Program-made: the position numbers and the translations under genes | Assembly: GCF_913020055.1 (NCBI RefSeq) | Contig: NZ_CAJWCF010000008.1 | Span: 1 to 64,000, forward strand | Source of the DNA: an uncultured Paraglaciecola sp. | GTDB taxonomy: Bacteria; Pseudomonadota; Gammaproteobacteria; Enterobacterales; Alteromonadaceae | Length of the DNA stretch: 64,000 nt | Direction of reading: 5' to 3' | Shown here: positions 32,047 through 63,933 of the stretch, piece by piece | How the letters are laid out: each line of letters starts with the position of its first letter | Position numbering within the stretch: position 1 is the stretch's first letter | The notes under the pieces: generated by a model | Told to the model about the DNA's origin: nothing | The model's input: the letters and a program-made list of their open reading frames with translations, nothing else | Databases searched by the model: none

Positions 32047-32258
32047 TATTGTTTTTCTTCTGTCGTTAAAGATAACCTGTTGAACATAAACATAAATAAA
32101 TCACTAAGTCGAATCTCAACAAAATCAGGGTTTGTTGCGTGGCTCAGGGATGTGATTTATTCTTCTGCAGTCAGAGTGACCTTTATTTTATGCTACACAG
32201 CGCCAGACACAGATCTTGGAAATAACAATAACAATAACAAACAAGGGATACATCAATC

Positions 32259-34094
32259 ATGAAACCTTTTTCAAATGGCTAGGCATCATCTTGCTCGCAA
32301 TAACAGTGTTAGCGGGCATTTTTGCGACTTACGAATGGAAAGCTGACAAACCGTTTTCATTCAATAATTTTCTAAACAGAACCTTAATAAAAGAGGCCTT
32401 AGATAGCCCTGAAACCCTTACATCAATTGGTATTCTTGAAAACATAGGCATAACAGGTCATAACGCTCATTTGAATGATGCAAGTGAAGCTAACTCCTTG
32501 GCTCTTTTTAAACGCTTAAAAAAAGTCCGTGAAACCCTGTTGCAGTACAAAGATGATGAGTTAAACGAAGATCAGCTTTTGTCCAAAGAAATCGCCATGT
32601 ATTTACTCAACATGTTGGACGATATGGAAAAATATCAACACCATGATTACCCGTTTAATCAAATGTCAGGAGCCCAGAGTAATTTTCCTAGTTTTATGGA
32701 TGCACAACATGCTATTTCCAATGTTGAAAGTGTTGAGCACTACATATCTCGACTCAGCGAGTCTAAACGTTATTACACACAAACCCTTGAAGGTATGCGC
32801 ATTCGGCAAGAAAAAAACATATTCCCCCCCACTTTTGTAGTGGAGCGTGTGATTGATGAAATGACAGGGTTCATTGGCACACCTGCTACTAAAAACGTGT
32901 TGTACACTTCATTAGAGAAAAAAAATAGATGAGAGTGAATCCATCACCAGCGAACAAAAACCAGAATTATTAGCAGCAGTAGCCGCCGAAATTGAAAAAA
33001 CGGTTTATCCCACTTACCAAATGCTCATTGAATATTTTACAGAGCTAAAAAGTAAAACTAATTCAGATGATGGCGTGTGGAGCATGCCTCAAGGTGAGGA
33101 AGTGTATAACCTAAGTTTACGTTTTATGACCACCACTGATTACAGTGCTGACAAAATCCATAACATTGGTTTATCTGAAGTAGCACGCATACAGGCGGAA
33201 ATATTATCGATATTAGCCAGTGAAGGTTTTGATACTACCCAAGGGTTTACTGATTCGATTAATCAATTAGCCTCACAAGAACGCTTCTATTTCCCAGATA
33301 CTGACGAAGGGCGTGAACAAATACTCGTCGAGTATCAAACTATTTTAGATGAAATTGACAGTGGCTTAGGAGACAGTTTCTCAATGCGCCCAGAAGCGGG
33401 AATGGAAGTAAAACGTATTCCATTATTTAAAGAAAAAACCGCACCGGGAGCATACTATTATCCACCTTCACTAGATGGCTCTCGTCCCGGTGTATTTTAC
33501 GCAAACCTATATGACATCAAGGCCACTCCAAAATACAGTATGCGCACTTTGGCCTACCATGAAGGTATTCCAGGACACCATTTCCAAATTGCCATTGGCA
33601 TGGAATTAGAAGACTTGCCTATTTTTAGAACACTGCCATTATTTACTGCTTATGTGGAGGGTTGGGCTTTGTATACCGAATATTTAGCGTGGGAATTAGG
33701 CTTTCAAGACGACCCTTTCGATAACATAGGAAGATTACAAGCAGAGCTATTTAGAGCAGTACGCTTGGTTGTAGACACAGGGCTACATGCGAAACGCTGG
33801 ACACGAGAAGAAGCCATCACTTACATGCTGAACAATACAGGTATGGCCGAGTCAGATGTTGTTTCAGAGATTGAGCGCTACATAGTGTTACCGGGCCAAG
33901 CCAAAGCGTATAAAGTAGGCATGATGAAAATTCTCGAAGTCCGCGAAAAAGCCAAACAAGCTTTAGGTGATAAGTTTGTACTGGGTGAATTTCATGATGT
34001 GGTACTAAAGAATGGCGCCGTGCCGTTAGACATCTTAGACCGCTTGGTTGCAAAGTGGGTTGCTAAAAAGCTAGCTAGTAACCAATCAGATTAG
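32259..34094 (+). pseudogene. DUF885-family metallopeptidase-like protein, frameshifted
   Basis: ORFs 32216-32932 and 33021-34094 are consecutive parts of one DUF885 protein. Removing one A from A8 near 32920 fuses them (YTSLEKK-IDESESITSEQKPELLAAVAAEIEKTVYPTYQMLIEYF); adding one T to T5 near 32270 connects to ATG 32259 (MKPFFKWLGIILLAITVLAG). Active-site-like HEGIPGHHFQ is retained. Confidence 0.75.
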
Positions 34095-34468: not shown

Positions 34469-35371
34469 ATGAGTTGGTTGTCAAAAATTGTTGTGCTGTT
34501 TTTAACGCTGGCTTTATTGCAGCATTCCTACGCAGCGGATAGCGTAAATCTGTTGGTAATGGTGGAAGACGCTGATCAAAACTCTATTCCTCGGGATAGT
34601 CGTATCAATAAACGAGTACATGCCAGTATTAGCCAGCAACTTAATCACATCGTTGATGTGTATGACGAAACAAGTCTCACCCTAACATCATTTAAACAAG
34701 GCCGAGTGCGACGGTCTGACGCAGAGTTATTTGATATTGCTCAATCTATTACACGCCCTCCCATCGATATAATTGCAGTATTTAGTACCTATGCGTCGAT
34801 TAGTACCAGCGAGTATGCAAAAAAAGCCCGGGCGCGAGTAGAGGGCCGTTTATTGAATGCCAAGTCTGGTAAGTTTTTGGATAACTTCGAAGTGCAAAGC
34901 CCGCGTAGCTGGACGATTCCCTACGCCTGTGACAGTCAAACTTGTATGTTAGAAGAGATGGGCGATGAAGCTAAAGTGTTAGGTGATGAGTTAGGGTTAA
35001 TTCTAGCTGAAAAATTAAATTGGCTTATAAATGGCGAGTCATCTGCCCTCCCTGCCCCTGCAACAGAATTATTCAATGATTATTACTTAGAGTTTGATGG
35101 GTTTAGTGCCCAAGATGTGGCTAGTATTGAGGAGTATTTATTGCTTTTTTCAGGTTATATTTCCCATCGCCCCACACAACAAAGGCATACTCGCACGACC
35201 TTGTTATATCGCTCTACTATTGGCAGCGCAAAACTGAGTAGAAATATTCTAAAATTATTAGAAGAACTCAACATGCGAGCGACGGTCAATTTTGAAGGTA
35301 ACGCTTTTAATGTCAAAAGAATTACTCTGCGGGGTGAATCCCCCATTCGAGATGTTGCCGAAGGTTGGTAA
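34469..35371 (+). CDS. secreted protein of unknown function, paralogue of next gene's N-terminal region
   Basis: Signal peptide MSWLSKIVVLFLTLALLQHSYA; RBS AAGGAA; CsgG/LpoB-like alpha/beta pattern followed by a second domain; start trimmed from 34439. Confidence 0.65.
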   Translation: MSWLSKIVVLFLTLALLQHSYAADSVNLLVMVEDADQNSIPRDSRINKRVHASISQQLNHIVDVYDETSLTLTSFKQGRVRRSDAELFDIAQSITRPPIDIIAVFSTYASISTSEYAKKARARVEGRLLNAKSGKFLDNFEVQSPRSWTIPYACDSQTCMLEEMGDEAKVLGDELGLILAEKLNWLINGESSALPAPATELFNDYYLEFDGFSAQDVASIEEYLLLFSGYISHRPTQQRHTRTTLLYRSTIGSAKLSRNILKLLEELNMRATVNFEGNAFNVKRITLRGESPIRDVAEGW

Positions 35372-35410
35372 CATTCTTGCATTCAAAAGTTGTTCTATTG
35401 ACTTTTAATA

Positions 35411-37339
35411 GTGGACAATGAAAACCAACACAAACATTTTAAACTGACTATGCCGCGTACTTTTCAGCAAAAAACCAAAAGGCAACAACTAGGCAACGTA
35501 ATTGTAAGTTACGTAATTGGCCTATTGTGCCTGTGTGTGCAAACAAGTTTTGCCGCTGAGCGCTGGAAAATTGTGGTGTTGCCCGATAAAAACAACAATA
35601 CGCCAAACGAGCTAACAGCAGTTGCAGACTTTCACCGTACAATTTCTCAAGGCTTGACTAATGCTTTAACTAACGCAGACTTTGATGTGCTTAATTTAGA
35701 TTATTTAGGTTTACCCAATTGTATCCTCGAAGACTGTTCCAATTTAACCGACCAAACTATTCAGCTGGCAGCAAATCGTTCTGGTAGAGAAGTTAACCTT
35801 GCCCTGCTTTATCGACTGAATACATTTAAACAACGTCAGTCGGCAGTACAAAAATGGTATTTCAGTTTATCAGGGCGGTTATTAGATTTACAAAGTGGCG
35901 CCCAACAAGATGCCTTTTCTGTGGAGAGTCGGCTCAACCCTCCAGCCAAAAATTGCATTGCTGATTGTTTAAACCTTTGGTTAAACCAAAACCTCGCGTT
36001 ATTAGCTCAGGATTTAGGAGCGGTTTTAAGCGAAAAACTCCAAGCTTTACCAAGACGTTTTCACTACCAACTTAATCTGAGCAACTTCAATAGTGCCGAT
36101 TTGCTACAAATCGATAAAAATTTAAAAACTTTCGATGGTTACGTTGCAGACACATTATTGAGTGATCCCAAACCAACCAACCAAGACCTAGCCACTGTCC
36201 CAAATCGCACATATCAATATGTCTCTGAGTTGAGCGCTTCTGAGTTAAGCTCAGAGTTAGAAAACCTAAACAACTTAGGCGTCCTGTCACTTAAGTTAGA
36301 GTACGATAATAAACAACGACTTTTCCATCTCAGGGCTGCACAGGAAAGCGCCTCATGGGCAACAATTAGCCAATTTATTACCGACTTATTAGACGATCCA
36401 GAACCAGAAATATCACAACCAACCACTGAAGTTACTGCCCCCACAACGACCGAAACACCAGAAATACAAACAGATGCAGAGAAGGAAATCCAAAAAGATC
36501 GACAAATGTGGCAACAAGCTCTCGGTATTAATAGCAAAGACAGTTACCAACAATATCTGACTATTTGGCCACAAGGGCAACATTTCATCCAAGCAAAGGC
36601 AGCAATAAAACGTTTTGATGATGATGAAAACGCATGGCAACAAGCATTAAGTCAAACAACAAGCCGAGCATTTCAACACTATCTAAGGTTGCAACCAACA
36701 GGTAAATATACAAACCAAGCTAAACAGCAATTAGCTTTAATTCGAGAGCAACAAAAGCTAGTACAAAAACAACGAGAAAACAAAGCGTTAGCTGACGATT
36801 ATTATCATCAACAACAAAATTATCCAGAAGCCCTGTATTACTACGAACAAGCTGCAAAACTGGGCGATATTTCGTCCCAATATCTGTTAGCCAAAATGTA
36901 TGACGATGGCAAAGGTATAGAACAAAACAAGCACCAAGCAGCTATTTGGTATACCCAAGCAGCCAAACATGGTCACAGCCAAGCTCAAGTGGCACTGGGT
37001 TATATGTATTCAAAAGGTAATGGCGTTAATCAAGATTATTCACAGGCCGCACACTGGTATCTAAAAGCAGCAACTCAGGGGCATATCGATGCCCAGCACA
37101 ATCTAGCCTACTTGTATTCACTCGGCCAAGGCGTAGCAAAAGACTACCAACAAGCTGCTTTTTGGTATGAAAAGTCGGCCATTCAAGGTGATGCAGATGC
37201 GCAAAATAGTTTAGGAAAACTATATGAGAGAGGCTTGGGCGTTAGTAAAAATTTAATCAAAGCAAAAAGCTTATATAAACAAGCGGCTGCCCAAGGCAAC
37301 CAAATTGCCCAACTCAATCTGCAAATGCTGAATAATTAA
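35411..37339 (+). CDS. secreted/anchored protein: N-terminal paralogous domain and about five C-terminal Sel1-like repeats
   Basis: Signal-like VIVSYVIGLLCLCVQTSFA; repeats such as AAIWYTQAAKHGHSQAQVALGYMYSKGNGVNQDYSQAAHWYLKAATQGHIDAQHNLAYLYSLGQGV. Start may be at a downstream Met. Confidence 0.75.
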   Translation: MDNENQHKHFKLTMPRTFQQKTKRQQLGNVIVSYVIGLLCLCVQTSFAAERWKIVVLPDKNNNTPNELTAVADFHRTISQGLTNALTNADFDVLNLDYLGLPNCILEDCSNLTDQTIQLAANRSGREVNLALLYRLNTFKQRQSAVQKWYFSLSGRLLDLQSGAQQDAFSVESRLNPPAKNCIADCLNLWLNQNLALLAQDLGAVLSEKLQALPRRFHYQLNLSNFNSADLLQIDKNLKTFDGYVADTLLSDPKPTNQDLATVPNRTYQYVSELSASELSSELENLNNLGVLSLKLEYDNKQRLFHLRAAQESASWATISQFITDLLDDPEPEISQPTTEVTAPTTTETPEIQTDAEKEIQKDRQMWQQALGINSKDSYQQYLTIWPQGQHFIQAKAAIKRFDDDENAWQQALSQTTSRAFQHYLRLQPTGKYTNQAKQQLALIREQQKLVQKQRENKALADDYYHQQQNYPEALYYYEQAAKLGDISSQYLLAKMYDDGKGIEQNKHQAAIWYTQAAKHGHSQAQVALGYMYSKGNGVNQDYSQAAHWYLKAATQGHIDAQHNLAYLYSLGQGVAKDYQQAAFWYEKSAIQGDADAQNSLGKLYERGLGVSKNLIKAKSLYKQAAAQGNQIAQLNLQMLNN

Positions 37340-37406
37340 GGCTCATTCAGCCAGAACCTAACAAAAATATCTCTGAGGTTTGCATAACCGCCAATGGAGG
37401 TACGTT

Positions 37407-37856
37407 ATGCATCAACATACAAATCACGACACCAGCACACAAGCTATGACCGAAGTGGCATTGGGATTATCAATGGCGTTTTTTTCTTTGTTAATCTTGG
37501 CCCTATTTTCTATTGGTTTACCTGACTCAACACAAAAAGAAGAACCATCATTAACAATTGATGAACAGCTAACACTAGCTGACAACAACGAAAAACCGTC
37601 TAAAAACCAAACCGCTGAAAGTAGAAAACAACAATACGTCTTTTACTTTAATCAGCAGTTTTATGATAAACAGCTCACTCGCTTAAATATCGACAACTTT
37701 AGCCGTTTTGAGACTCAACAACCTTTGATCCTTGCGGTACAAGACAACCTACCCTTGATAAAAATAATGGCTCTTCGTAAACAAATTAATCATCCACAGC
37801 TTTCCATAACCATGCTGGATAATAAGTGGCAATCGCAATTGGAGAAGATGCAATGA
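37407..37856 (+). CDS. bitopic inner-membrane protein, unknown function
   Basis: GGAGG RBS, single N-terminal TM (TEVALGLSMAFFSLLILALFSIGLP) and periplasmic C-terminus; start trimmed from 37380. Confidence 0.6.
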   Translation: MHQHTNHDTSTQAMTEVALGLSMAFFSLLILALFSIGLPDSTQKEEPSLTIDEQLTLADNNEKPSKNQTAESRKQQYVFYFNQQFYDKQLTRLNIDNFSRFETQQPLILAVQDNLPLIKIMALRKQINHPQLSITMLDNKWQSQLEKMQ

Positions 37857-38650
37857 ACCCCAAATCAATAATTAAAGTGTTAAGTGTATTTGTGATGTTT
37901 TTAGCTCCAACAGCTTCGGCAACTTATTACTACGATACTGAAGATATTCAACAACAAGTCATTTCTGAAGCCAAACGGCAAAATCTAGCGCCATCATTAG
38001 CTTTAGCGATTGCCAAGGTTGAGTCCAACTTTAACCCCAATGCATTAAGCCACGCTGGAGCGAAAGGTGTGATGCAAATCATGCCGCGCACTGCAGAACA
38101 AGTATTTGGCGTGAATCAAAGCCGGTTATTTGAGCCTGATGTGAATATAAAGTTGGGAGTAAAATTTATTAAACAGTTACTTGAACGTTATGAAAACCGC
38201 TTGGATATTGCTTTATCACATTACAATGGTGGCTCTGGCGTGAAAAACAGGCAAGGCGAGCTCAAAGTGATACCCGCCACACGTAACTACGTGAATAAAG
38301 TACTCAACAGCCAACAAGCATTTTTGCAGCACGACAATCAATGGCTATCTACATCAGGGGGTAAACCACTGTATTTCACCTCTTTGTATAACGATACTGG
38401 AATAGCTCAAACGGATTCTACAATTATTGAACCCCACTCTGAAAATCCACAAATTGAAACCTTACGGGCGTTGCGATTACATAACATTACCCGTAATTAT
38501 CAAAGCACTAGCGCTCTCACCGGCAAAAACCAAACGACTCATTTCGCAAAGCCACACATCGCTGAAACCTCTCTCAAGACAAAAATGTCGAAAGTTAGAC
38601 TGTGGGAATCTATCTATACCAATCCACATAAACTGGTATTGCTAGATTAG
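37853..38650 (+). CDS. lytic transglycosylase, SLT family 1
   Basis: Signal peptide; AIAKVESNFNPNALSHAGAKGVMQIMPRTAEQVF; LSHYNGGSG; 4-nt overlap with the previous gene. Confidence 0.88.
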   Translation: MNPKSIIKVLSVFVMFLAPTASATYYYDTEDIQQQVISEAKRQNLAPSLALAIAKVESNFNPNALSHAGAKGVMQIMPRTAEQVFGVNQSRLFEPDVNIKLGVKFIKQLLERYENRLDIALSHYNGGSGVKNRQGELKVIPATRNYVNKVLNSQQAFLQHDNQWLSTSGGKPLYFTSLYNDTGIAQTDSTIIEPHSENPQIETLRALRLHNITRNYQSTSALTGKNQTTHFAKPHIAETSLKTKMSKVRLWESIYTNPHKLVLLD

Positions 38651-38708
38651 GATCTGTTTATCCGTTAAATTAAAGACATAACAGTAGTAGCAATCTTAAT
38701 CAGGCCGA

Positions 38709-40271
38709 ATGAGCAAAATTATTAACTTTGGAATTAGCGAAACCTTAAAAGCGCTTTTTGCCCAGCTAAAAGAAACACCCAGCCAGCATGGGTATAAATA
38801 TCATGCCAAGGACGTGGAGCAATTATCCCAATACATTGTTTGTCGCAACTATGGATCGGTGTGTTATGAACTCAGTTTTCTTTGCTGGGCCGTAGTCAAC
38901 CATCCAGGTTATTCGTCATCACCTTTACTCAGTTTTTTTTGGCTAGAAGACAACCTGCAACCTAAACGTTTTCGTCAGGCATTTAATCAGCCAATACAAA
39001 CAGCTTCAGATAACATTATTATGGGCAAGGAACATTTACAGCTGCAAATCGGCGACATCGACTTTGCTATTTCCCCTACCCGCGTCAGTTTATTAGCCCT
39101 ATTGTTGGAGTTGATTACCAATATTGAGCCAGCTCAGTTGGCTAATATTGAAAAACGGCTGTTAGGTGCCAACAACCAAGCAATAAAACAAATGTCTTCT
39201 GAACTACAAAAGCTGATTTATGCCTACTTAAAAGAACATATTCCAGAAGCCAGTACCCAAGAACGTTTTCGAGCCATTAGCGGCTGGCTAAAACAACATA
39301 ACCTAACGGCTGCTAGACTCACCGATCAAGATGTACTGAATTTTTGGCTCAGCCCACCAGCACAACCTAGTTATATTAAATATTCCACAGTATTGGACGA
39401 TTTACTCGATGCGATAACCGCCATAGAAGTGGTCGAAAATACGCTTAATGCGGATTATGCCCTAAGTCTTGGTAACGATAGTGAGCAAGGGGAAATTAGT
39501 ACTGAGTGGGTGCAACAGACTTTATTTGAACAAGCTGAAAACAACATTGATTTAGGCTGGTTGTGTCGCTCACCCAAATTTTTAACTCTGGCGCAGTTTC
39601 AGCCAATGAAATCCTTATTAAGCCACGGGAAATTAGCGCGCCAATTACCTTTGTCCTTTTTGCGTTTAAGCATATTTGGTGGTTGGCAATCAGTATTAAT
39701 CCAGGCCAAAAGAAAGTCGTCTCAGGAATTGGCTGATAAACTTCAACAAAACCCCAACCGCCAATACTTAGATTATATAGCCGAACTCAATGACTCTGAG
39801 TCACAATGTAAACAAGTACAACAAATCATTGCCCACATATTTTACAGTCTTAATATTCCTTTATTTATTGGCATCATGCTCAAACAAATACCAACAGATT
39901 TGCAACAAACACTCAAAATATGGATGAGAGAGCAAATAGCCAATACAGCAGAGTCTGAAAGAAACCCTTTTGTGCACATCCAGCAATGGTTATCCCAGCA
40001 CCCAAAGGCACAATTTTGGTTAACTGAAGCGGAATTCCTGTTTAAAAACAATAATAAGGATGGATTTAAAAATATACCATCAGTTCCAGAGCTGGATATT
40101 TATCAGGATGGCAGCGAAGCACTCAACCATTGCCAAGAGTTAGTTGCCCGCTATTTGTTGGTCATAACAAAATTAAATCATGAAAACACTCAGTTAGCGG
40201 AAATTTATCGCTCTGACCTGTGCATATTCAGTAATAGATTTAAGCAAATATATGGAGCACCCGATGCCTGA
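38709..40271 (+). CDS. hypothetical cytosolic protein
   Basis: 520 aa intact ORF, no signal peptide or recognised motif; overlaps the next start codon. Confidence 0.6.
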   Translation: MSKIINFGISETLKALFAQLKETPSQHGYKYHAKDVEQLSQYIVCRNYGSVCYELSFLCWAVVNHPGYSSSPLLSFFWLEDNLQPKRFRQAFNQPIQTASDNIIMGKEHLQLQIGDIDFAISPTRVSLLALLLELITNIEPAQLANIEKRLLGANNQAIKQMSSELQKLIYAYLKEHIPEASTQERFRAISGWLKQHNLTAARLTDQDVLNFWLSPPAQPSYIKYSTVLDDLLDAITAIEVVENTLNADYALSLGNDSEQGEISTEWVQQTLFEQAENNIDLGWLCRSPKFLTLAQFQPMKSLLSHGKLARQLPLSFLRLSIFGGWQSVLIQAKRKSSQELADKLQQNPNRQYLDYIAELNDSESQCKQVQQIIAHIFYSLNIPLFIGIMLKQIPTDLQQTLKIWMREQIANTAESERNPFVHIQQWLSQHPKAQFWLTEAEFLFKNNNKDGFKNIPSVPELDIYQDGSEALNHCQELVARYLLVITKLNHENTQLAEIYRSDLCIFSNRFKQIYGAPDA

Positions 40272-40809
40272 TCATCAATATCACATGCAGGAGCAACTAT
40301 TTACCGCCAAAACCTTGTACCGCGAGTTACATCAATTTGCGCCAGAAAAAAATAGTACTGGCAAACCTGTGCTGTTAAATGACTTAGTACAGTTGGCTGA
40401 AGGTAATCCACAAATTGATGGCCAGCAGGTTATGCAGCAAATTAATCAATCACTGCCACTGCGCCGTCAATATATGCAGTTGTTACAAAAATTGGCCTTT
40501 GCCAATAGCCCAGTGCAAGCAGCTGCCAGTTCAGTCGCTGAAATCAGCAGTCGTAAATCTGCAGAATTTGAATTGTTATTTAAGCGCGACAAACAATTTT
40601 CAGGACAGGTGTACGTGATACTTAAAATTCCACATTCAATTGAAAAGCATCACAACCAAGGCGTGCATGTGAATTGTTGTTCCGACAAAATAATATCTTC
40701 GATCCACTTCCCGCCTATTGTGGATGGTAAAACGCAGCTATTAATGGAAGAATCAGATCAGAAGTTTATAAACATGTTTGATGCTGAGTTTGCAATATAC
40801 CTATCCTAA
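40264..40809 (+). CDS. hypothetical cytosolic protein
   Basis: Start trimmed to MPDHQYHMQEQ, overlapping the previous stop (gATGCCTGA). Confidence 0.55.
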   Translation: MPDHQYHMQEQLFTAKTLYRELHQFAPEKNSTGKPVLLNDLVQLAEGNPQIDGQQVMQQINQSLPLRRQYMQLLQKLAFANSPVQAAASSVAEISSRKSAEFELLFKRDKQFSGQVYVILKIPHSIEKHHNQGVHVNCCSDKIISSIHFPPIVDGKTQLLMEESDQKFINMFDAEFAIYLS

Positions 40810-40875
40810 CAATGACATTAGAGTTAAGTCGCCTTTGTTTGCTGTTTTGATATTAATGGCAGGGAACCAAGTTAG

Positions 40876-42045
40876 ATGAAAACTCATATATTTATCGCCA
40901 CCACTCAAGGCTTAGTAGCGATACAAAATATCACGCCTATTGATGACGAAGACATTAGCTCTGTTGTATCCGTTAATGGCACTTCAACTACCGCCAATAT
41001 CAGCAGCAGTTACCACAACTTTGTCAAAAAAGGCGTGGGCATTATCCATAAGATGTTTGGCGCCTGCAGTTATCGAGTGGATATCAGTGCGCGAATAGAC
41101 CAAGGTAATAGTTGGCAAGTCGCCATGTATTTAGCTCACCTAGCCCAAGCAAAAGGTATATTAGGCAATGGCGAAGTTAGACAAGGTGACAGGGTTATTT
41201 GTGCCACTGGCGAGGTCAATACCACTAACCTTCAAGTACTTGCTGTTAATGAAGTCCCGGTTAAATTTGAGCTGGCTCAATCACAACTGACGCAATGGAC
41301 AGCGCTTGGCGCTGAAGTACAGTTTTTATTACCACAAGCCAATCAATCTGAAATACAACCAAACACTTATATCAAGCTAATTAGTAACCTCGAACAAGCA
41401 GCTACTGCATTGCCAAACAGCATACAAGAGCAATCAACATCTAATATAAAAACAAAAAAGTTAGTAAGTAATAACTCTCGGTACATTATCACTGGTGTAG
41501 TAGTATTATTGGTATTGGCGATGTTTTTTGGACTCAGTAAATTTATACCTTCCGATAATAGTACTCAGCAAAGTGTGGCTGAAAAAAACAATATATCTAC
41601 AGGCGACACCAACCTAAAAATACAATTAGTCGCCCAACTAAAACAAAGTAAAACCTGCGCCCAAACATCTAGTCAAAGTTTATCTCTAAGCAATAAATCC
41701 TTTGCTGAATTGGCACTCAGTCAACTCTGTGAATTACATCTGCAAACACCTCAAGCTATCGGTCAACTATTGCTCATCGCACAAGATGCCTACACAGTCC
41801 TACCGCTGAAACGTAACCAACCAGGTTGGCAAATTCCCCTGCCTAAAAATCGCTTAGCAGACCGCAGTTATTTTTTAGTTACTATCGTTAATCCCCTTAG
41901 TGAAGAAAAAATCGAAAAGTTACGGCTTTATCGTGAGGCCATGGCTAAACCAACGATGCTGACTGAAGCAGCGCTAGTGATTTGGTTGCAAACACAAGAT
42001 GTAGAATTTACTGTTTATAGTCATAAGTTGGTGCTGAAGGAATGA
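40876..42045 (+). CDS. Lon-protease-like (S16-type) domain protein with a TM helix
   Basis: DQGNSWQVAMYLAHLAQAKGILGNGEVRQGDRVICATGEVNTTNLQVLAVNEVPVKFELAQS resembles the Lon proteolytic core (DGPSAGIA...TGEV...VGGIKEK), followed by TM YIITGVVVLLVLAMFFGLSKFI. Confidence 0.6.
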   Translation: MKTHIFIATTQGLVAIQNITPIDDEDISSVVSVNGTSTTANISSSYHNFVKKGVGIIHKMFGACSYRVDISARIDQGNSWQVAMYLAHLAQAKGILGNGEVRQGDRVICATGEVNTTNLQVLAVNEVPVKFELAQSQLTQWTALGAEVQFLLPQANQSEIQPNTYIKLISNLEQAATALPNSIQEQSTSNIKTKKLVSNNSRYIITGVVVLLVLAMFFGLSKFIPSDNSTQQSVAEKNNISTGDTNLKIQLVAQLKQSKTCAQTSSQSLSLSNKSFAELALSQLCELHLQTPQAIGQLLLIAQDAYTVLPLKRNQPGWQIPLPKNRLADRSYFLVTIVNPLSEEKIEKLRLYREAMAKPTMLTEAALVIWLQTQDVEFTVYSHKLVLKE

Positions 42046-44585
42046 CAGTATTTTTTCGGGGAAAACGCCTGAGTAAAAAATGGTTTGGACTTTTGCTGTG
42101 CTGCACTTTGCTGGCTACAGTGATCATTTATCGCCAACCTATTGCTATCAAAAGCATTGAACATTTGACTCAATCACAAAATATATCCGTTACCTGCTTA
42201 AGCTTTATCTTAGATTGGCAACTAAACATTAATATTCAACAAATGTGTTTAGCTTCACCAAAAGGAAAAGTTTTTATACAAAAAGCATTTTGGCAGCCAT
42301 GGTCCAATGTTTTAAGTATTGAACAAATAACAATCACACACATTGAACAACTAGCGACTGATAATAAGGTGATTGAAACTCCACTAAATGGCCAGCAAGC
42401 AATTGCACTTAACCTACCTGACTCGTTACCAAAACTAAACATTTCAAGTCTCAAAATTGACTCTTTTGTTTTACTTCAGCCCTTACAGTTAAGTGTAAAC
42501 TCGGTTTCAGATAACAAACTGAATATCACAGGCGATGTAAATGCCTCGCTTGAGGTTTACCCAAATACTGTAGTTGGAAATATAGAATGGAATTTATCCG
42601 ACCTCGCAAAATGGATACCCCAAGCACAGAAATTCTATCAAGATAACGCCGAACAATTGCAGGATGCGGCCTTAGATACAGCCCAAATAAAAACTAATAT
42701 CACTTTTGATGGCATGGCTTTACATGCAGAAAACAGCGTAGATATAGCAAGTGTTATTCATGTTTCAAACTGCCCAATTGACGCGATTTTACAAGGAGAT
42801 GTGTTAGTTGATATAAGCCTCAGGAGTCTTAAAATCAGCTTGAATTTAAGCCAACTTAACAACGATATTTCTATAGTTAATTGCCCATTAATAACAGATT
42901 ATTTTGCCAAAGATGACGTGCCTCAGTTGTCTTTTCTGTTTCCTCAAGAAATGACTATTAGTCAAACGCATGTAGAGCTTGGCGAATTACGTATTATCGA
43001 CAAGCAAAATACACATCGAAGTATCATTCTTAAAGCTTTGAATTATAAAGCAACAGGTCTACTTGAAGTTGACTACACCACCTCAATTAGACAGGCTTTA
43101 AAGACAAAAAAAATACATGGAGGAATGCTGGATTTACAGGGGGTGGGCAATCTTTCTGTCGATCTCTCAACTGTGCATACTCAAGATACAAAACTGCCAA
43201 TCGATTTTAAAATTACTAATAGTAACAACCAATTAGTAATAAACGATTTTCAGATGGACTCTTTGTTGATCGGCAAGTTAACAATGGAATTTTCCTTACA
43301 CGAAAACGCACCTAATCAACTTAAACTGCAGGGAAATATTAATAGCCAAGATATACAGATGGGCGCCGTTAAGCTTGCAAAAACAAGTAGCCTATTTTCT
43401 ATTACAGGCGATAATTTTAATGATTTGCAATTGAGTATAGACAATCAACTATCTCAGATTTCTCACCCTGAATTCAGATTACATAACCTTGCCAATCACC
43501 TAGATTTGAATATACAGAAATTTGACACCCTGAGCTTTTCAGGGAACTCAACTATCACAAAACTAACGACGCAAAACATCAACTTGTTGCCAATTGATTT
43601 AGTGCACAAAGGGCAAGCAAGTTTGGCGAATATGACTGTATCTAGTCAGCATGACATTGGTTTTAAGCAAGGTTTTTCGATTCAGCTTGAACAGCAGCAA
43701 ACTCAGGCAAAAGTACATGTAAACCAACAAGATATCGCTAGTTTGCAACACATCATTTCACAGTTGGAAAACGCACTGTTGATTAAAGAAGGTAAACTTT
43801 CAGCCAGTATTGCTTTTGCTTTACCCAAAGAAGGTGAACCATTCTTTGCCCAAGGAAAGTCAGACTTTAAAGGGGTAACCATAAAGTATCAAGACTATGT
43901 GCTAAATAACATCACTTACCAAACACCACTCACATTTGATTCAGCAGGTCTTCAGCTAGCCGAATCTACTCTACACATAGATTCAATTGAAGCTGGAGTG
44001 TCTATTGAAAAACTTCAAGCGCTGGTTATTGCAAAAGACAGCGTATTTCGTTTAAGCCAAATTCACGGAGAAATATTTAATGGTAAGTTTTCATCCAGTC
44101 AATTGTGGTTAGATGGACGCGAGCAAGAATTCGATATCAATTTTCAGGGTATTGATTTGTCTCAGGTAGTGGCATTACAACAACAACCCGGAATCAAAAT
44201 CACTGGGAATATTGATGGCGATTTACCCATGTTGATGAATACACATGGACTCAGTATAGATAAAGGCTGGGCGTCGAGTCTTTCAGGTGGGAAGTTGACT
44301 ATAATAGATAATCCGTCCTTTGATTCTATTAAAGTCCAACAGCCTGAATTAGCCTTGCTGGAAAATATTGACTTCAGCCAATTAGAAAGCAAAATAAAGC
44401 TTAATCCAGATGGTTGGGTGTTTTTTGATTTTGCTTTACAGGGTAATAACCCTGACAAAAAGCAAAGTGTTAATTTAAATTATAGTCATCAAGAAAATGT
44501 ATTGGCTTTATTAGAGTCAATACGATTAGTTAAGTCAGTAGAAAATAGAATTGAACAGAAAATAACCCAAGGTAAGAAAAAGTGA
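42042..44585 (+). CDS. ydbH: YdbH family intermembrane bridge (AsmA-like/DctA-YdbH domain) protein
   Basis: 847 aa, N-terminal TM, repetitive beta structure, followed by ynbE-like and ydbL-like genes in canonical order. Confidence 0.82.
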   Translation: MTVFFRGKRLSKKWFGLLLCCTLLATVIIYRQPIAIKSIEHLTQSQNISVTCLSFILDWQLNINIQQMCLASPKGKVFIQKAFWQPWSNVLSIEQITITHIEQLATDNKVIETPLNGQQAIALNLPDSLPKLNISSLKIDSFVLLQPLQLSVNSVSDNKLNITGDVNASLEVYPNTVVGNIEWNLSDLAKWIPQAQKFYQDNAEQLQDAALDTAQIKTNITFDGMALHAENSVDIASVIHVSNCPIDAILQGDVLVDISLRSLKISLNLSQLNNDISIVNCPLITDYFAKDDVPQLSFLFPQEMTISQTHVELGELRIIDKQNTHRSIILKALNYKATGLLEVDYTTSIRQALKTKKIHGGMLDLQGVGNLSVDLSTVHTQDTKLPIDFKITNSNNQLVINDFQMDSLLIGKLTMEFSLHENAPNQLKLQGNINSQDIQMGAVKLAKTSSLFSITGDNFNDLQLSIDNQLSQISHPEFRLHNLANHLDLNIQKFDTLSFSGNSTITKLTTQNINLLPIDLVHKGQASLANMTVSSQHDIGFKQGFSIQLEQQQTQAKVHVNQQDIASLQHIISQLENALLIKEGKLSASIAFALPKEGEPFFAQGKSDFKGVTIKYQDYVLNNITYQTPLTFDSAGLQLAESTLHIDSIEAGVSIEKLQALVIAKDSVFRLSQIHGEIFNGKFSSSQLWLDGREQEFDINFQGIDLSQVVALQQQPGIKITGNIDGDLPMLMNTHGLSIDKGWASSLSGGKLTIIDNPSFDSIKVQQPELALLENIDFSQLESKIKLNPDGWVFFDFALQGNNPDKKQSVNLNYSHQENVLALLESIRLVKSVENRIEQKITQGKKK

Positions 44586-44764
44586 AAATATTATATTTAG
44601 GACTTGTGGCGACAGGGTTTCTAAGTGCTTGTACCCATACAGTACAAGTTGAAACAAAAGAGCCAATTACTATCAATATTAATGTAAAAATTGATCACGA
44701 AATTCGAGTGAAAGTTGATAAAGAACTTGATGACGTATTTAGTGAAGACAGTAATTTGTTTTAA
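44582..44764 (+). CDS. ynbE: YnbE family lipoprotein
   Basis: 60 aa; lipobox LSAC; VETKEPITININVKIDHEIRVKVDKELDD. Confidence 0.88.
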   Translation: MKILYLGLVATGFLSACTHTVQVETKEPITININVKIDHEIRVKVDKELDDVFSEDSNLF

Positions 44765-44784
44765 GCCAATTTAGGAATAACTTT

Positions 44785-45111
44785 ATGAAAACCAAAATAA
44801 TTTTTAAATCCCTTGTTATTGTCAGTTTACTATTTAGCAGTTTTGTTTTCGCTATAGGTTTAGGTGAAGCGAAAGACCAAGGTCTAGTGGGCGAAAAAGA
44901 TAATGGCTATTTAGGTTTAGTGATAGCAAAAGCTGAGACACAAAGTTTAGTAGATGATATCAACGCTAAGCGCAAAGAAGTGTATTTAAAACTCGCGGCG
45001 AAAAATGGTATTACCTTGCAACAAATAGAAAAATTAGCCGCTCAGAAAGCTTATGAAAAGACTAGCTCTGGTCATTACCTTTGGGTAAGTGGTAAATGGA
45101 CTACAAAATAA
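44785..45111 (+). CDS. ydbL: YdbL family protein (DUF1318)
   Basis: Signal peptide; LGEAKDQGLVGEKDNGYLGLV...DINAKRKEVYLKLAAKNGITLQQIEKLAAQKAYEKTSSGHYLW. Confidence 0.9.
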   Translation: MKTKIIFKSLVIVSLLFSSFVFAIGLGEAKDQGLVGEKDNGYLGLVIAKAETQSLVDDINAKRKEVYLKLAAKNGITLQQIEKLAAQKAYEKTSSGHYLWVSGKWTTK

Positions 45112-46701: not shown

Positions 46702-47748
46702 CTAAGCGTCTTGGCGAATTTCAACTAAGTTGAAATTCGTTTGGTTATCACCCACTACCATGATTCTGCAGCGCCCCCAACTTTCAGGGATTTTCCACTC
46801 AGTATTTTCTGCTACGGTATACTTTTCTCTCTTATTTGCACAACGCAGTTCTACAGAATCCAATGTGCCTGATATATCACTGAAGCTAAAACGGTTTCGA
46901 CTAAGAGAGTGCCACCAATCACCATCGCTATCTATTTTTCCTTGGACAACAATATAGTCTTCATCTTTTAAAATCTGCCGAGCTTGGATTGCATATTGTT
47001 CTAAGAAACTGACAACTTTATCACTATTAGGTTGCTGTTCAATTTGGGTAAATGTATTTAACGCATCTGAAAATAATGATGCTTGAATTTCTAAAACAAA
47101 CTTTTGACGAAGAAGGTTGAGGAAAGCGACCTCACCAATGTGTTTACTGCTGTTACCAGAAAAGACAACTCGCTTAATACTATTTAATTGAACGTTTACC
47201 TGGCCTTGTGCTTTGGCGACCTTAGACTTCAACATCCAAAACCATGCGTCTTCGTAACTATTCCAAATTTTTTCTTCACCCATTTTAGTAATCAATTGTT
47301 CTGCCAGAAGGATATCGTTAGTTTTTAGTGCCTCTGTCGCTTTTCTATATTCTCTTACAAACCGTTTTCTGCCGCCCTTTGTTGATTTATCTAATCTAAA
47401 ATCAAGCTGCACACTGTTGCGACACTGTTCGATCTTTTCTCCATCGCGAATAGCAGGCGAATATTGCCATTGTTTAATGGCGCGTAAACTAGCCTTTTCA
47501 AAACCACGAATACCAGACGAGTCTTCAACAATTGGATCCACCACTGCACCGTTTTCGTCCACAACAAAACTAATCTGAACCCATCCTTCATTGCCGCTTC
47601 GAGCTGCAAGAGTAGGATATTTAGGAGGCACACGTTCGATGGCTTTGGCTGGAATAACAGTTTCAACTAATTCAACACTGGATGATAACGCTGTATCTGC
47701 GATTAAAACATTCGAAAATAAAGATAATACGAGTAGGGATAATTTCAT
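46702..47748 (-). CDS. TonB C-terminal domain (energy transducer TonB-like) protein
   Basis: PPKYPTLAARSGNEGWVQISFVVDENGAVVDPIVEDSSGIRGFEKASLRAIKQWQYSPAI; start trimmed to MKLSLLVLSLFSNVLIADT. Confidence 0.8.
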   Translation of the reverse strand: MKLSLLVLSLFSNVLIADTALSSSVELVETVIPAKAIERVPPKYPTLAARSGNEGWVQISFVVDENGAVVDPIVEDSSGIRGFEKASLRAIKQWQYSPAIRDGEKIEQCRNSVQLDFRLDKSTKGGRKRFVREYRKATEALKTNDILLAEQLITKMGEEKIWNSYEDAWFWMLKSKVAKAQGQVNVQLNSIKRVVFSGNSSKHIGEVAFLNLLRQKFVLEIQASLFSDALNTFTQIEQQPNSDKVVSFLEQYAIQARQILKDEDYIVVQGKIDSDGDWWHSLSRNRFSFSDISGTLDSVELRCANKREKYTVAENTEWKIPESWGRCRIMVVGDNQTNFNLVEIRQDA

Positions 47749-47874
47749 TTTACGTCCTTGAAAAGTGATATAATTATGGGAAGTTTTCTGTGCTGATAGT
47801 AGGGCTTTGTATAAACAATTACAAATATAGAAAACAGCATTAGGCAACACCGAAATCAAACCGAAGGAATATAC

Positions 47875-48477
47875 GTGAGTAAACAAGTAGTACTAGCAAC
47901 TGGCAATAAAGGTAAAGTTAAAGAGCTTGCTCGTATGTTGTCGGGCTTAGGTATTGAAGTATTACCTCAAAGCGAATTCGCCGTGAGTGAAGTGGCCGAA
48001 ACGGGTAGTACCTTTGTCGAAAATGCCATCATCAAAGCACGACATGCGGCTAAACAAACAGGCTTACCGGCAATCGCCGATGACTCGGGTTTAGCGGTTG
48101 ATGCCCTAGGTGGTGCGCCCGGAGTGTATTCTGCACGTTATTCTGGTGAGCAAGCTACAGATCAGAGCAATATCATTAAATTACTTGATGCTATGGCTGA
48201 TGTGCCTAAAGACAAACGCCAAGCCAAGTTTCTATGTGTATTAGTTTTTATGCGTCACGCTGATGACCCCACGCCTATTATTTGCCAAGGTGAATGGGCT
48301 GGCGAAATCACCAGTGAACAACATGGTGAAAATGGTTTTGGATACGATCCTGTTTTCTGGGTCGAACAACAAAACTGTAGCTCTGCTCAATTGTTGCCCG
48401 AACAAAAAAATGAGTTAAGCCACCGCGGTAAAGCGTTAAAACTGCTGTTAGCCCAACTACACAATAAAATGGGTTAA
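47875..48477 (+). CDS. rdgB: RdgB/HAM1 family XTP/dITP pyrophosphatase
   Basis: [46 protein letters not shown]. Confidence 0.94.
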
Positions 48478-61952: not shown

Positions 61953-63275
61953 CTAACTACCTACAGAAGCGAAACTAGCATATTGTTTTCTTTCGCCCTC
62001 AACAAATTTAGACCATTGTTGTGCCATGCCACGACTACCATCGTACTCTTGAGCTTTAGCCAGTTGGTTTAGCGCTTCGTTGTATGCACCGACATTAAAT
62101 TGCGCCATGCCAATAACTAGATGCGACATACCTTCATTGCGCAAACCACCTTTTTCTAGGGCTTGTTGTGAGGCAGTTATAGCGAGATCCCATTTATCCA
62201 TGTTCAAGTACATTTGACCAAGTTGAGCATACAACTCACCTGTTTTAGATAATTTAGCAGCGGCTAACATAACTGGAATCGCTTTTTCAGTTTCCTTAGC
62301 AGCATTCCAAGATTGCCCTAAGAACGTTAAGTTACGTTCATCTTCAATCAATTTACCTGCGTCCATAGCTTTTTGTATGACTGCTGCGGCTTTATAAGGC
62401 ATTTGATGATAGTAATAAAGTTGCGCTAAATTAAACATGTCTGAACCGCTAGCAATAATACTTTTTTGCTCAGCAATTTCCATTACGGCTAACTGTTTTT
62501 GTTCTTGTTCTAACTCACCGTACATACCAGCTAGTTGTAACCAATACTTGGGCGCTTCAAATTTTTTGACTAGTTTAAGTAATACATTTTTCACATTTTC
62601 AGGTTGCTTAAGTTCAAAATAAACAGCTCTTTGTAATACATACCACTGCTCATCTACCTGAAAACCTAAGTTGTTGCTTTCCACTTGCTCTACAGCTGCA
62701 TTGATATATTCAGAAGCAACTGCATAATCTTGTTTTTGATACATAGCTTGGGCTTTTAATACCAAGTTTTTAGCCGGAATATCTTTAGTGGGATATAGAC
62801 TCTTTTGAATGGCTTCCCATTGTTCAATTTTGGCTATGGTTTTGTCGTAATTGCCGCGCATCATATGCAACTGAGCAAGGCTAAATAAAGTGGCTTGTTC
62901 GAACGTTTCTGGAATAGGCTGTTGTTGCACCACGCTTTCAAATGCGGCAATAGCCTGGTCGTAGTTTTCAGCTTCATAATGAATAAAAGCATAAAAGTTA
63001 TACATCATGGCTTGTTCGTAACTGTTCATTGAGCTGGCTTTAGACTTAACCTTGTCTAATACAGCGAAAGCTTCGACTTGGTTACCGGCATCGGCTAAAC
63101 CTTGCGCCCGTGACAATTGATCGTACACCTTAGAACGCAAAGTAGGCACACGTTTGGTTTTACGTTCTACTTTTACCTGTTCTGCGTTAACAACGCTTGT
63201 TTGTATACTGGTTAATAAAACACTGGTCATTAATACCGGTGCCGCTAATTTAAGTAGTAATTTATGCATTGCCAT
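61953..63275 (-). CDS. Ton-system-associated TPR protein
   Basis: Signal peptide MAMHKLLLKLAAPVLMTSVLLTS; multiple TPRs; downstream of tonB. Start trimmed from 63338. Confidence 0.8.
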   Translation of the reverse strand: MAMHKLLLKLAAPVLMTSVLLTSIQTSVVNAEQVKVERKTKRVPTLRSKVYDQLSRAQGLADAGNQVEAFAVLDKVKSKASSMNSYEQAMMYNFYAFIHYEAENYDQAIAAFESVVQQQPIPETFEQATLFSLAQLHMMRGNYDKTIAKIEQWEAIQKSLYPTKDIPAKNLVLKAQAMYQKQDYAVASEYINAAVEQVESNNLGFQVDEQWYVLQRAVYFELKQPENVKNVLLKLVKKFEAPKYWLQLAGMYGELEQEQKQLAVMEIAEQKSIIASGSDMFNLAQLYYYHQMPYKAAAVIQKAMDAGKLIEDERNLTFLGQSWNAAKETEKAIPVMLAAAKLSKTGELYAQLGQMYLNMDKWDLAITASQQALEKGGLRNEGMSHLVIGMAQFNVGAYNEALNQLAKAQEYDGSRGMAQQWSKFVEGERKQYASFASVGS

Positions 63276-63276
63276 T

Positions 63277-63933
63277 TTAGCCCCCAAGTTCGAATTTAAC
63301 CCGCACTTCAACCCCAGATACTTCCATGGGTTCGCCATTTACGACGCGCGGTTTGTATTTATATTTTAAAGTGGCGTCTAACGCCGCTTGATCAAAAATG
63401 CCTGCAGGTGATGCTTGGATCACCTTGGGATGGGTTACTGAGCCAAATTTGGACACAGTGAATTCAACATCCACATACCCCTCGATGCCACGTTGTAATG
63501 CTCTTCTTGGATACACGGCTGCCACGCGCACTATTGGTAAAAACTCACCATCACCTGACTCCAAGGCTAAGCCTCCATCAAGAGAGATATCAGCCGCTAC
63601 ATCCGCTCCAAAGTCCATACCACTGGTTGCACTTTCTGGACTAGGTGCATCCATTTGTGGCGGTGCCATATCCGGTGGTGGCTGTTCGGGTTTGGGTGGC
63701 TTTTTAGGTTTTCTGTCTTTCTTTTGTACCGCTTCCTCTTTCTTCACCCGGACAAAATCCAACACACTGCCTTTAGGCGCATCCGTTAATGCGCTGCCAC
63801 CACTTTGGATTAATGACTGCATCAAAAAGAACAATGCTAAAGTGACAAACGCTGCCAATAGAATGGCTACCACTAACCTTGATAGAGTCTGCGGCATGGT
63901 TTTTGCCGGAGTCTTCGATATACGCTGCGACAT
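63277..63933 (-). CDS. tonB: TonB energy transducer
   Basis: N-terminal TM, Pro/Lys-rich linker (KKDRKPKKPPKPEQPPPDMAPP), C-terminal TonB domain (VYPRRALQRGIEGYVDVEFTVSKFGSVTHPKV). Confidence 0.9.
   Translation of the reverse strand: MSQRISKTPAKTMPQTLSRLVVAILLAAFVTLALFFLMQSLIQSGGSALTDAPKGSVLDFVRVKKEEAVQKKDRKPKKPPKPEQPPPDMAPPQMDAPSPESATSGMDFGADVAADISLDGGLALESGDGEFLPIVRVAAVYPRRALQRGIEGYVDVEFTVSKFGSVTHPKVIQASPAGIFDQAALDATLKYKYKPRVVNGEPMEVSGVEVRVKFELGG

Follow-up and report, generated by a model that had tools for sequence, protein, structure and literature searches.

The question raised by this locus is whether genes that stand together in one run also work together. The window, by which we mean the whole 64,000-nucleotide stretch of DNA analysed here, is part of contig C8 of the 4.6 Mb draft genome of an uncultured Paraglaciecola, and at positions 34469-45111 its + strand carries ten open reading frames (ORFs), namely a block of seven genes, here called g1-g7, followed by ydbH, ynbE and ydbL, whose products are associated with AsmA-like intermembrane lipid transport (PMC8593681). 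The original prediction, made from the DNA letters, joined all ten into one operon and proposed that the block builds a trans-envelope assembly with the lipid-transport bridge, or matures or quality-controls it. We find that ydbH-ynbE-ydbL is only a local neighbour, attached to the g7 end of the block in some Paraglaciecola and standing outside the conserved system, and that g1-g7 probably belong to a conserved envelope machine as one of its two halves, the other being a set of six genes, c1-c6. No account of a cluster like this came to light in searches of the open-access literature, and the cell-envelope machine is apparently undescribed so far. It is best read as a divergent proton-driven machine with a motor related to those of the Ton, Tol and Zorya systems.

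The relation between the two halves is seen most directly in the relative G024, where c1-c6 follow directly after the block; in the relative G004 they are preceded by ydbL and by two further genes, a GGDEF and a DedA-like one, and in the window genome they form an operon on a separate contig (C86:1218-4820). They encode a lipoprotein (c1), an exported coiled coil of ~290 residues (c2), an exported protein of ~130 residues (c3), a protein of 160-190 residues with membrane helices (c4, at C86:3085-3561 in the window genome), a protein with one transmembrane helix and a coiled coil (c5), and a protein in which one transmembrane helix is followed by a Pro-rich linker and then by a C-terminal domain, where two Cys residues are invariant (c6). 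When 60 relatives were searched together with the window genome (61 genomes in total), g5, a core gene of the system (38709-40271, +) that encodes a cytosolic protein of 520 residues and no known family, was present in 10, g7 in the same 10 and as a weak partial match in G006, and c4 in exactly the 10 genomes with g5, with one more marginal match in G043 (E=1e-3). Likewise, strong c4 matches (E<1e-50) and g5 fall in the same 7 of 395 genomes of an order-wide sample, in which three weak c4 matches lie in other proteins, and no genome searched clearly carried only one half. Were the two genes independent, identical g5 and c4 sets would be expected with a probability of ~1e-11 for the 61 genomes and ~4e-15 for the 395, shared ancestry being ignored in both figures.

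This association furthermore extends far beyond the genus. When 85,000 species genomes were scanned with c4, 121 relatives were obtained, and the 80 loci that were kept come from Paraglaciecola, Glaciecola, Alteromonas, Colwellia, Pseudoalteromonas and other Gammaproteobacteria, and also from many Alphaproteobacteria (Terasakiella, Magnetovibrio, Rhodospirillaceae and SAR116). Block genes lie near c1-c6 in 60 of the 80, and by profile annotation all 11 core genes (g3-g7 and c1-c6) are present in 22. In a class-wide sample of 369 genomes, about one per genus, c4 was found in the window genome only, and the system is therefore patchy. Across both classes three modules, g3-g4, g5-g6-g7 and c1-c6, occur in permuted orders, the commonest being g3 g4 g5 g6 g7 c1-c6, and others being c1-c6 g3-g7, g3 g4 c1-c6 g5-g7 and an arrangement in which the g genes are inverted onto the opposite strand. 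In Paraglaciecola the cluster is split with both halves retained, and in G004 the ydb genes occupy the split point. Because the modules have been shuffled and yet kept together, the two halves appear to be functionally joined. Directly 3' of c6, many alphaproteobacterial loci also carry a gene for a lipoprotein-like protein of ~220 residues (L122:11899-12561 and its equivalents), possibly a twelfth gene of the cluster.

What the machine might be is suggested mainly by g3 and c4. None of g3, g5, g6, g7 and c1-c6 matches a Pfam or NCBIfam family above cut-off, profile searches of Pfam, NCBIfam and the PDB with g1, g5, g6, c1-c3, c5 and c6 gave nothing usable, and sequence-profile searches of the PDB with the g3 and c4 alignments gave chance matches only, so that fold prediction was required for these two. 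The g3 gene (37407-37856, +) encodes a candidate ExbD/TolR-like motor B subunit with a transmembrane helix (residues 8-36), a linker and a periplasmic domain, and in its AlphaFold model the linker is disordered and the periplasmic domain, of beta-beta-alpha-beta-alpha-beta-alpha order, is confidently predicted. The five best PDB fold matches of g3 are all ExbD/TolR periplasmic domains (prob 0.96-1.00, E 0.009-0.06), and a comparison with ExbD by hhalign (P=0.01) is suggestive only. Within its single transmembrane helix Glu16 is invariant in 36 of 36 homologues, which also have in common an M-x-F-F motif after this residue. Thus g3 appears to combine the periplasmic fold of the B subunits of 5:2 motors with a conserved acidic residue in the membrane helix, here a Glu and not the usual Asp. 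The predicted c4 structure (predicted local distance difference test, pLDDT, 90) ends in two long helices, and 33 of its top 50 PDB matches, none of them with E<=1e-3, are motor A subunits (MotA, PomA, TolQ, ExbB or ZorA); the match to ZorA (8vvn) covers 76 columns at 2.1 Å with prob 0.98, and the PADLOC ZorA profile matches residues 46-156 with E=2e-4. The assignment of c4 as an A subunit is accordingly a prediction drawn from the pattern of matches and not from any one significant match. Four threonines of c4 (T91, T95, T97 and T135) are conserved. ExbB-ExbD and TolQ-TolR are 5:2 ion-driven motors and generic ion transporters (PMC9389320, PMC12505986), and the non-flagellar motors of this class are diverse and include proteins of unknown function (PMC12505986, PMC9389320, PMC12204202). 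The predictions support placing c4-g3 in this class as a divergent pair, which resembles ExbB-ExbD and TolQ-TolR in the topology, periplasmic fold and acidic membrane residue of g3 and in the terminal helices of c4, and differs from them in the Glu of g3 and in the small size of c4. In the g3 copy of G001 (L054:7549-8034) the N-terminus seems frameshifted, the transmembrane motif lying in another frame, so that either the sequence is in error or the gene is broken.

A number of points weigh against a motor-driven machine of this composition. The E-values of the g3 fold matches are only 0.009-0.06, and its membrane acid is a Glu where ExbD, TolR and MotB have an Asp. For c4 there is no single significant Foldseek match (best E 0.31), the hhalign comparison with the seven MotA_ExbB proteins of the window genome is weak (P=0.05) and yet aligned in the expected TM4 motif, reminiscent of that of MotA/ExbB, and PF01618 is matched weakly and below the Pfam cut-off by 3 of 48 c4 homologues (best E 0.02). 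Some c4 loci are without block genes within 10 kb, often owing to a contig end, and draft contigs conceal some linkages; the chance figures for co-occurrence overstate independence, the genomes being related. Furthermore, c6 had to be rejected as a member of the TonB family, since its hhalign alignment to TonB_C covers the transmembrane helix alone and a conserved transmembrane His such as PMC12204202 describes is missing.

The last point counts likewise against the alternative that survives best, namely that the cluster is a divergent ExbB-ExbD-TonB set energising uptake through particular outer-membrane receptors. The ExbB/ExbD-like character of c4 and g3 speaks for such a function, and indeed the succession of membrane helix, Pro-rich linker and C-terminal domain in c6 is the topology of TonB. 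However, c6 does not match TonB_C, Ton systems include neither a transglycosylase nor a Lon-like protein nor g5/g6, and the cluster has no conserved receptor gene, so that we consider a Ton-type energiser unlikely. A Zorya-like role in defence against phages must be regarded as considerably less probable still. The notion stems from the observation that ZorA is the best fold match of c4 by probability and its sole relevant PADLOC match, but no ZorC, ZorD, ZorE, nuclease or helicase was matched, the short ExbD/TolR-like domain of g3 is not accompanied by the OmpA-like domain of ZorB, and many parts of the cluster are exported periplasmic proteins. PADLOC moreover called no system, its matches other than the weak one of c4 to ZorA being at chance level, and a function in phage defence was rejected. 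Separate from the divergent motor, a canonical TonB2-type operon (61953-63933, -, continuing at C8:63949-65350) stands at the right edge of the window and extends beyond it, with genes for a TPR protein, TonB, ExbD, ExbB and a long MotA/TolQ/ExbB protein, and at 46702-47886 (-) the window encodes a protein of 394 residues that contains a TonB_C domain, without an obvious partner of the motor kind next to it.

A role of the block in maturing the YdbH-YnbE-YdbL lipid bridge, or in its quality control, now seems very improbable. The arrangement itself is as originally described, the ORF list agreeing with ten same-strand genes separated by small gaps and several stop/start overlaps; the spacing from g1 to ydbL is, in order, +39, +67, -4, +58, -20, +66, -4, -4 and +20 nucleotides, with overlaps of 4 nucleotides at g3/g4, g7/ydbH and ydbH/ynbE and of 20 at g5/g6. 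A search of the + strand of the run for terminator-like sites yielded none, also between g7 and ydbH, and promoter-like sites are not more frequent there than in shuffled sequence. The three neighbours ydbH (42042-44585, PF11739 E=1.5e-94), ynbE (44582-44764, PF13617 E=3.4e-16) and ydbL (DUF1318; 44785-45111, PF07027 E=5.9e-29), all on the + strand, are genuine Pfam members, as had been supposed, and the g7/ydbH junction is an overlapping ATGA in the window genome and a 1-nucleotide overlap in G004. The distribution nevertheless speaks against a functional linkage to YdbH, which we reject. YdbH is found in 41 of the 61 genomes, 31 of which are without the block. Of the 10 block genomes, only that of the window and G004 have the block adjoining ydbH. 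In the other 8 the two are ~16 kb (G015), ~28 kb (G019), ~53 kb (G001) and ~1 Mb (G024) apart, on different contigs in G017 and G011, and on different draft contigs in G012 and G021. Among the 80 c4 loci ydbH occurs in just two Paraglaciecola records and in no locus outside this genus. The block and ydbH thus do not regularly co-occur and co-localise, and since most relatives with ydbH lack the block and the block mostly lies elsewhere, this is the very distribution that the original prediction had named as speaking against itself; the generality it implied for the join does not hold. In a g5-g7 tree G004 and the window genome branch successively, with which both a single attachment of the ydb genes followed by relocation in other genomes and two separate events are in agreement. 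Annotation by adjacency would have misfiled half of the cluster under lipid transport. Equally hard to credit is that the halves are syntenic through shared ancestry alone, without joint function, for while related genomes do inflate the co-occurrence counts, the modules are permuted and even inverted and yet remain together in Alpha- and Gammaproteobacteria, and both halves are retained where they are split in Paraglaciecola.

Two genes of the block encode an enzyme or an enzyme-like protein. The g4 gene (37853-38650, +) encodes, as anticipated, an exported SLT-type (GH23) lytic transglycosylase with a full SLT domain above cut-off (PF01464 E=4.9e-25) that includes the catalytic Glu57; E57 and S58 are conserved in 47 of 47 sequences, and a G-M-Q motif and Tyr124 are conserved as well. 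In this it resembles the SLT/GH23 transglycosylases of secretion and flagellar systems, from which it differs by a C-terminal extension with a conserved L-H-N-x-T-R segment beyond the Pfam domain. The Lon-like domain ascribed to g7 (40876-42045, +; 389 residues) is upheld by profile comparison, the profile of 44 sequences matching, among PDB entries, Lon protease (best E=8.8e-5) and, by hhalign, 20 Lon-family proteins of the relatives (prob 91, P=9e-7). Ser79 and Lys130 of g7 align with the catalytic Ser and Lys of Lon, and G77, S79, W80, G112, K130 and C261 are invariant in 44 of 44 sequences. The N-terminal domain of g7 therefore retains the Ser-Lys dyad of the S16 fold, as judged from these alignments. 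In contrast to Lon, however, g7 has no AAA+ ATPase domain in Pfam or NCBIfam scans of its 389 residues, lies below Pfam detection, is membrane anchored, and has an extra C-terminal domain that contains two notable Cys residues, Cys261, which is invariant, and Cys285, which is conserved less widely; the position of the transmembrane helix and the periplasmic location of this C-terminal domain are putative, having been read from the sequence. The g6 gene starts at 40252 (or at 40264, the overlap with g5 given above being that of the first start), ends at 40809 (+) and encodes a cytosolic protein of 185 residues and no known family.

Taken as a proton-driven envelope machine, the cluster could work as follows. 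An inner-membrane motor of c4 and g3, with Glu16 of the latter in the membrane helix, would be driven by proton flow that turns or moves g3, c5 and c6, and force would pass by way of these three towards the periplasmic c2 and c3, the lipoprotein c1 and the outer membrane. The transglycosylase g4 may open the cell wall for assembly, and the Lon-like cytosolic domain of g7, tethered to the membrane, may process or sense a component, perhaps g5/g6. The original proposal of a trans-envelope assembly in which a peptidoglycan hydrolase is joined by a membrane protein of protease-like character is supported, without its link to YdbH-YnbE-YdbL, and more strongly than before, because the partner genes of the block encode a motor-like protein. 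The work done by the machine may be secretion, uptake or transport, surface motility, or envelope maintenance or tension. Unlike the Ton, Tol, Agl, Gld and Mot systems, the motor has an SLT enzyme, a Lon-like protein, g5, g6, c1-c3 and c5 as partners, and we would tentatively suggest, with rather more doubt than attaches to the unity of the two halves, that it represents a distinct class of trans-envelope machines found in Alpha- and Gammaproteobacteria. Such a machine would combine a minimal ExbBD/ZorA-like proton motor, an ATPase-free membrane-anchored Lon-like protease, a dedicated cell-wall opener and kinase control, and would serve secretion, surface motility or the remodelling of the envelope in a way that Ton, Tol, Mot, Agl and Gld do not. 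Most of the active processes known at the outer membrane are powered by proton-driven motors, and a conserved 11-gene motor cluster unseen by the family databases would add a new branch to this small set.

At the start of the block, both g1 (34469-35371, +), a secreted protein of ~300 residues, and g2 (35411-37339, +), likewise secreted, have a common N-terminal region and are related as had been noted, and the repeats predicted in g2, which lie at its C-terminus, are indeed Sel1 repeats (Pfam Sel1 E=6.7e-44). A 26-member alignment of g1 (A11) matched no Pfam or PDB family. In the relatives, g2 homologues often end in an FHA domain in place of Sel1, and many gammaproteobacterial clusters contain Ser/Thr kinase, SUMF1-like and FHA domains, with a PP2C phosphatase in a few; a kinase-FHA pair may control the machine or its assembly in many gammaproteobacterial relatives, and no kinase genes lie beside g1-g7 in the window genome. 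In G021 (L057:3316-8821, -) the genes next after the block encode Ser/Thr kinases of receptor-like type with SUMF1-like and FKBP C-terminal parts. Some alphaproteobacterial clusters have CsgG/LpoB-type proteins within or beside them (L128:2586-3494, L159:12436-13770 and L141:14361-15614), one of the three with a peptidoglycan-binding domain, and g1 and g2 might be distant members of this fold. The unsplit cluster is present in, for example, Terasakiella pusilla DSM 6293 and Pseudoalteromonas denitrificans DSM 6059, and in Terasakiella pusilla the gene beside the complete cluster (L122:364-2208, -) encodes a caspase-like protein (Peptidase_C14) that also has an SH3 domain of the bacterial type.

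Within the run as a whole, Pfam matches are confined to Sel1 (g2), SLT (g4), YdbH, YnbE-like and DUF1318/YdbL, with g1, g3, g5, g6 and g7 left without a family, and NCBIfam and PADLOC scans of the ten genes gave nothing useful beyond Pfam. Upstream of g1, a DUF885 protein at 32216-34094 (+) appears to be split into two ORFs of 238 and 357 residues that cover profile positions 1-165 and 192-532, which would suggest either a frameshift or pseudogene, or an error in the draft sequence.

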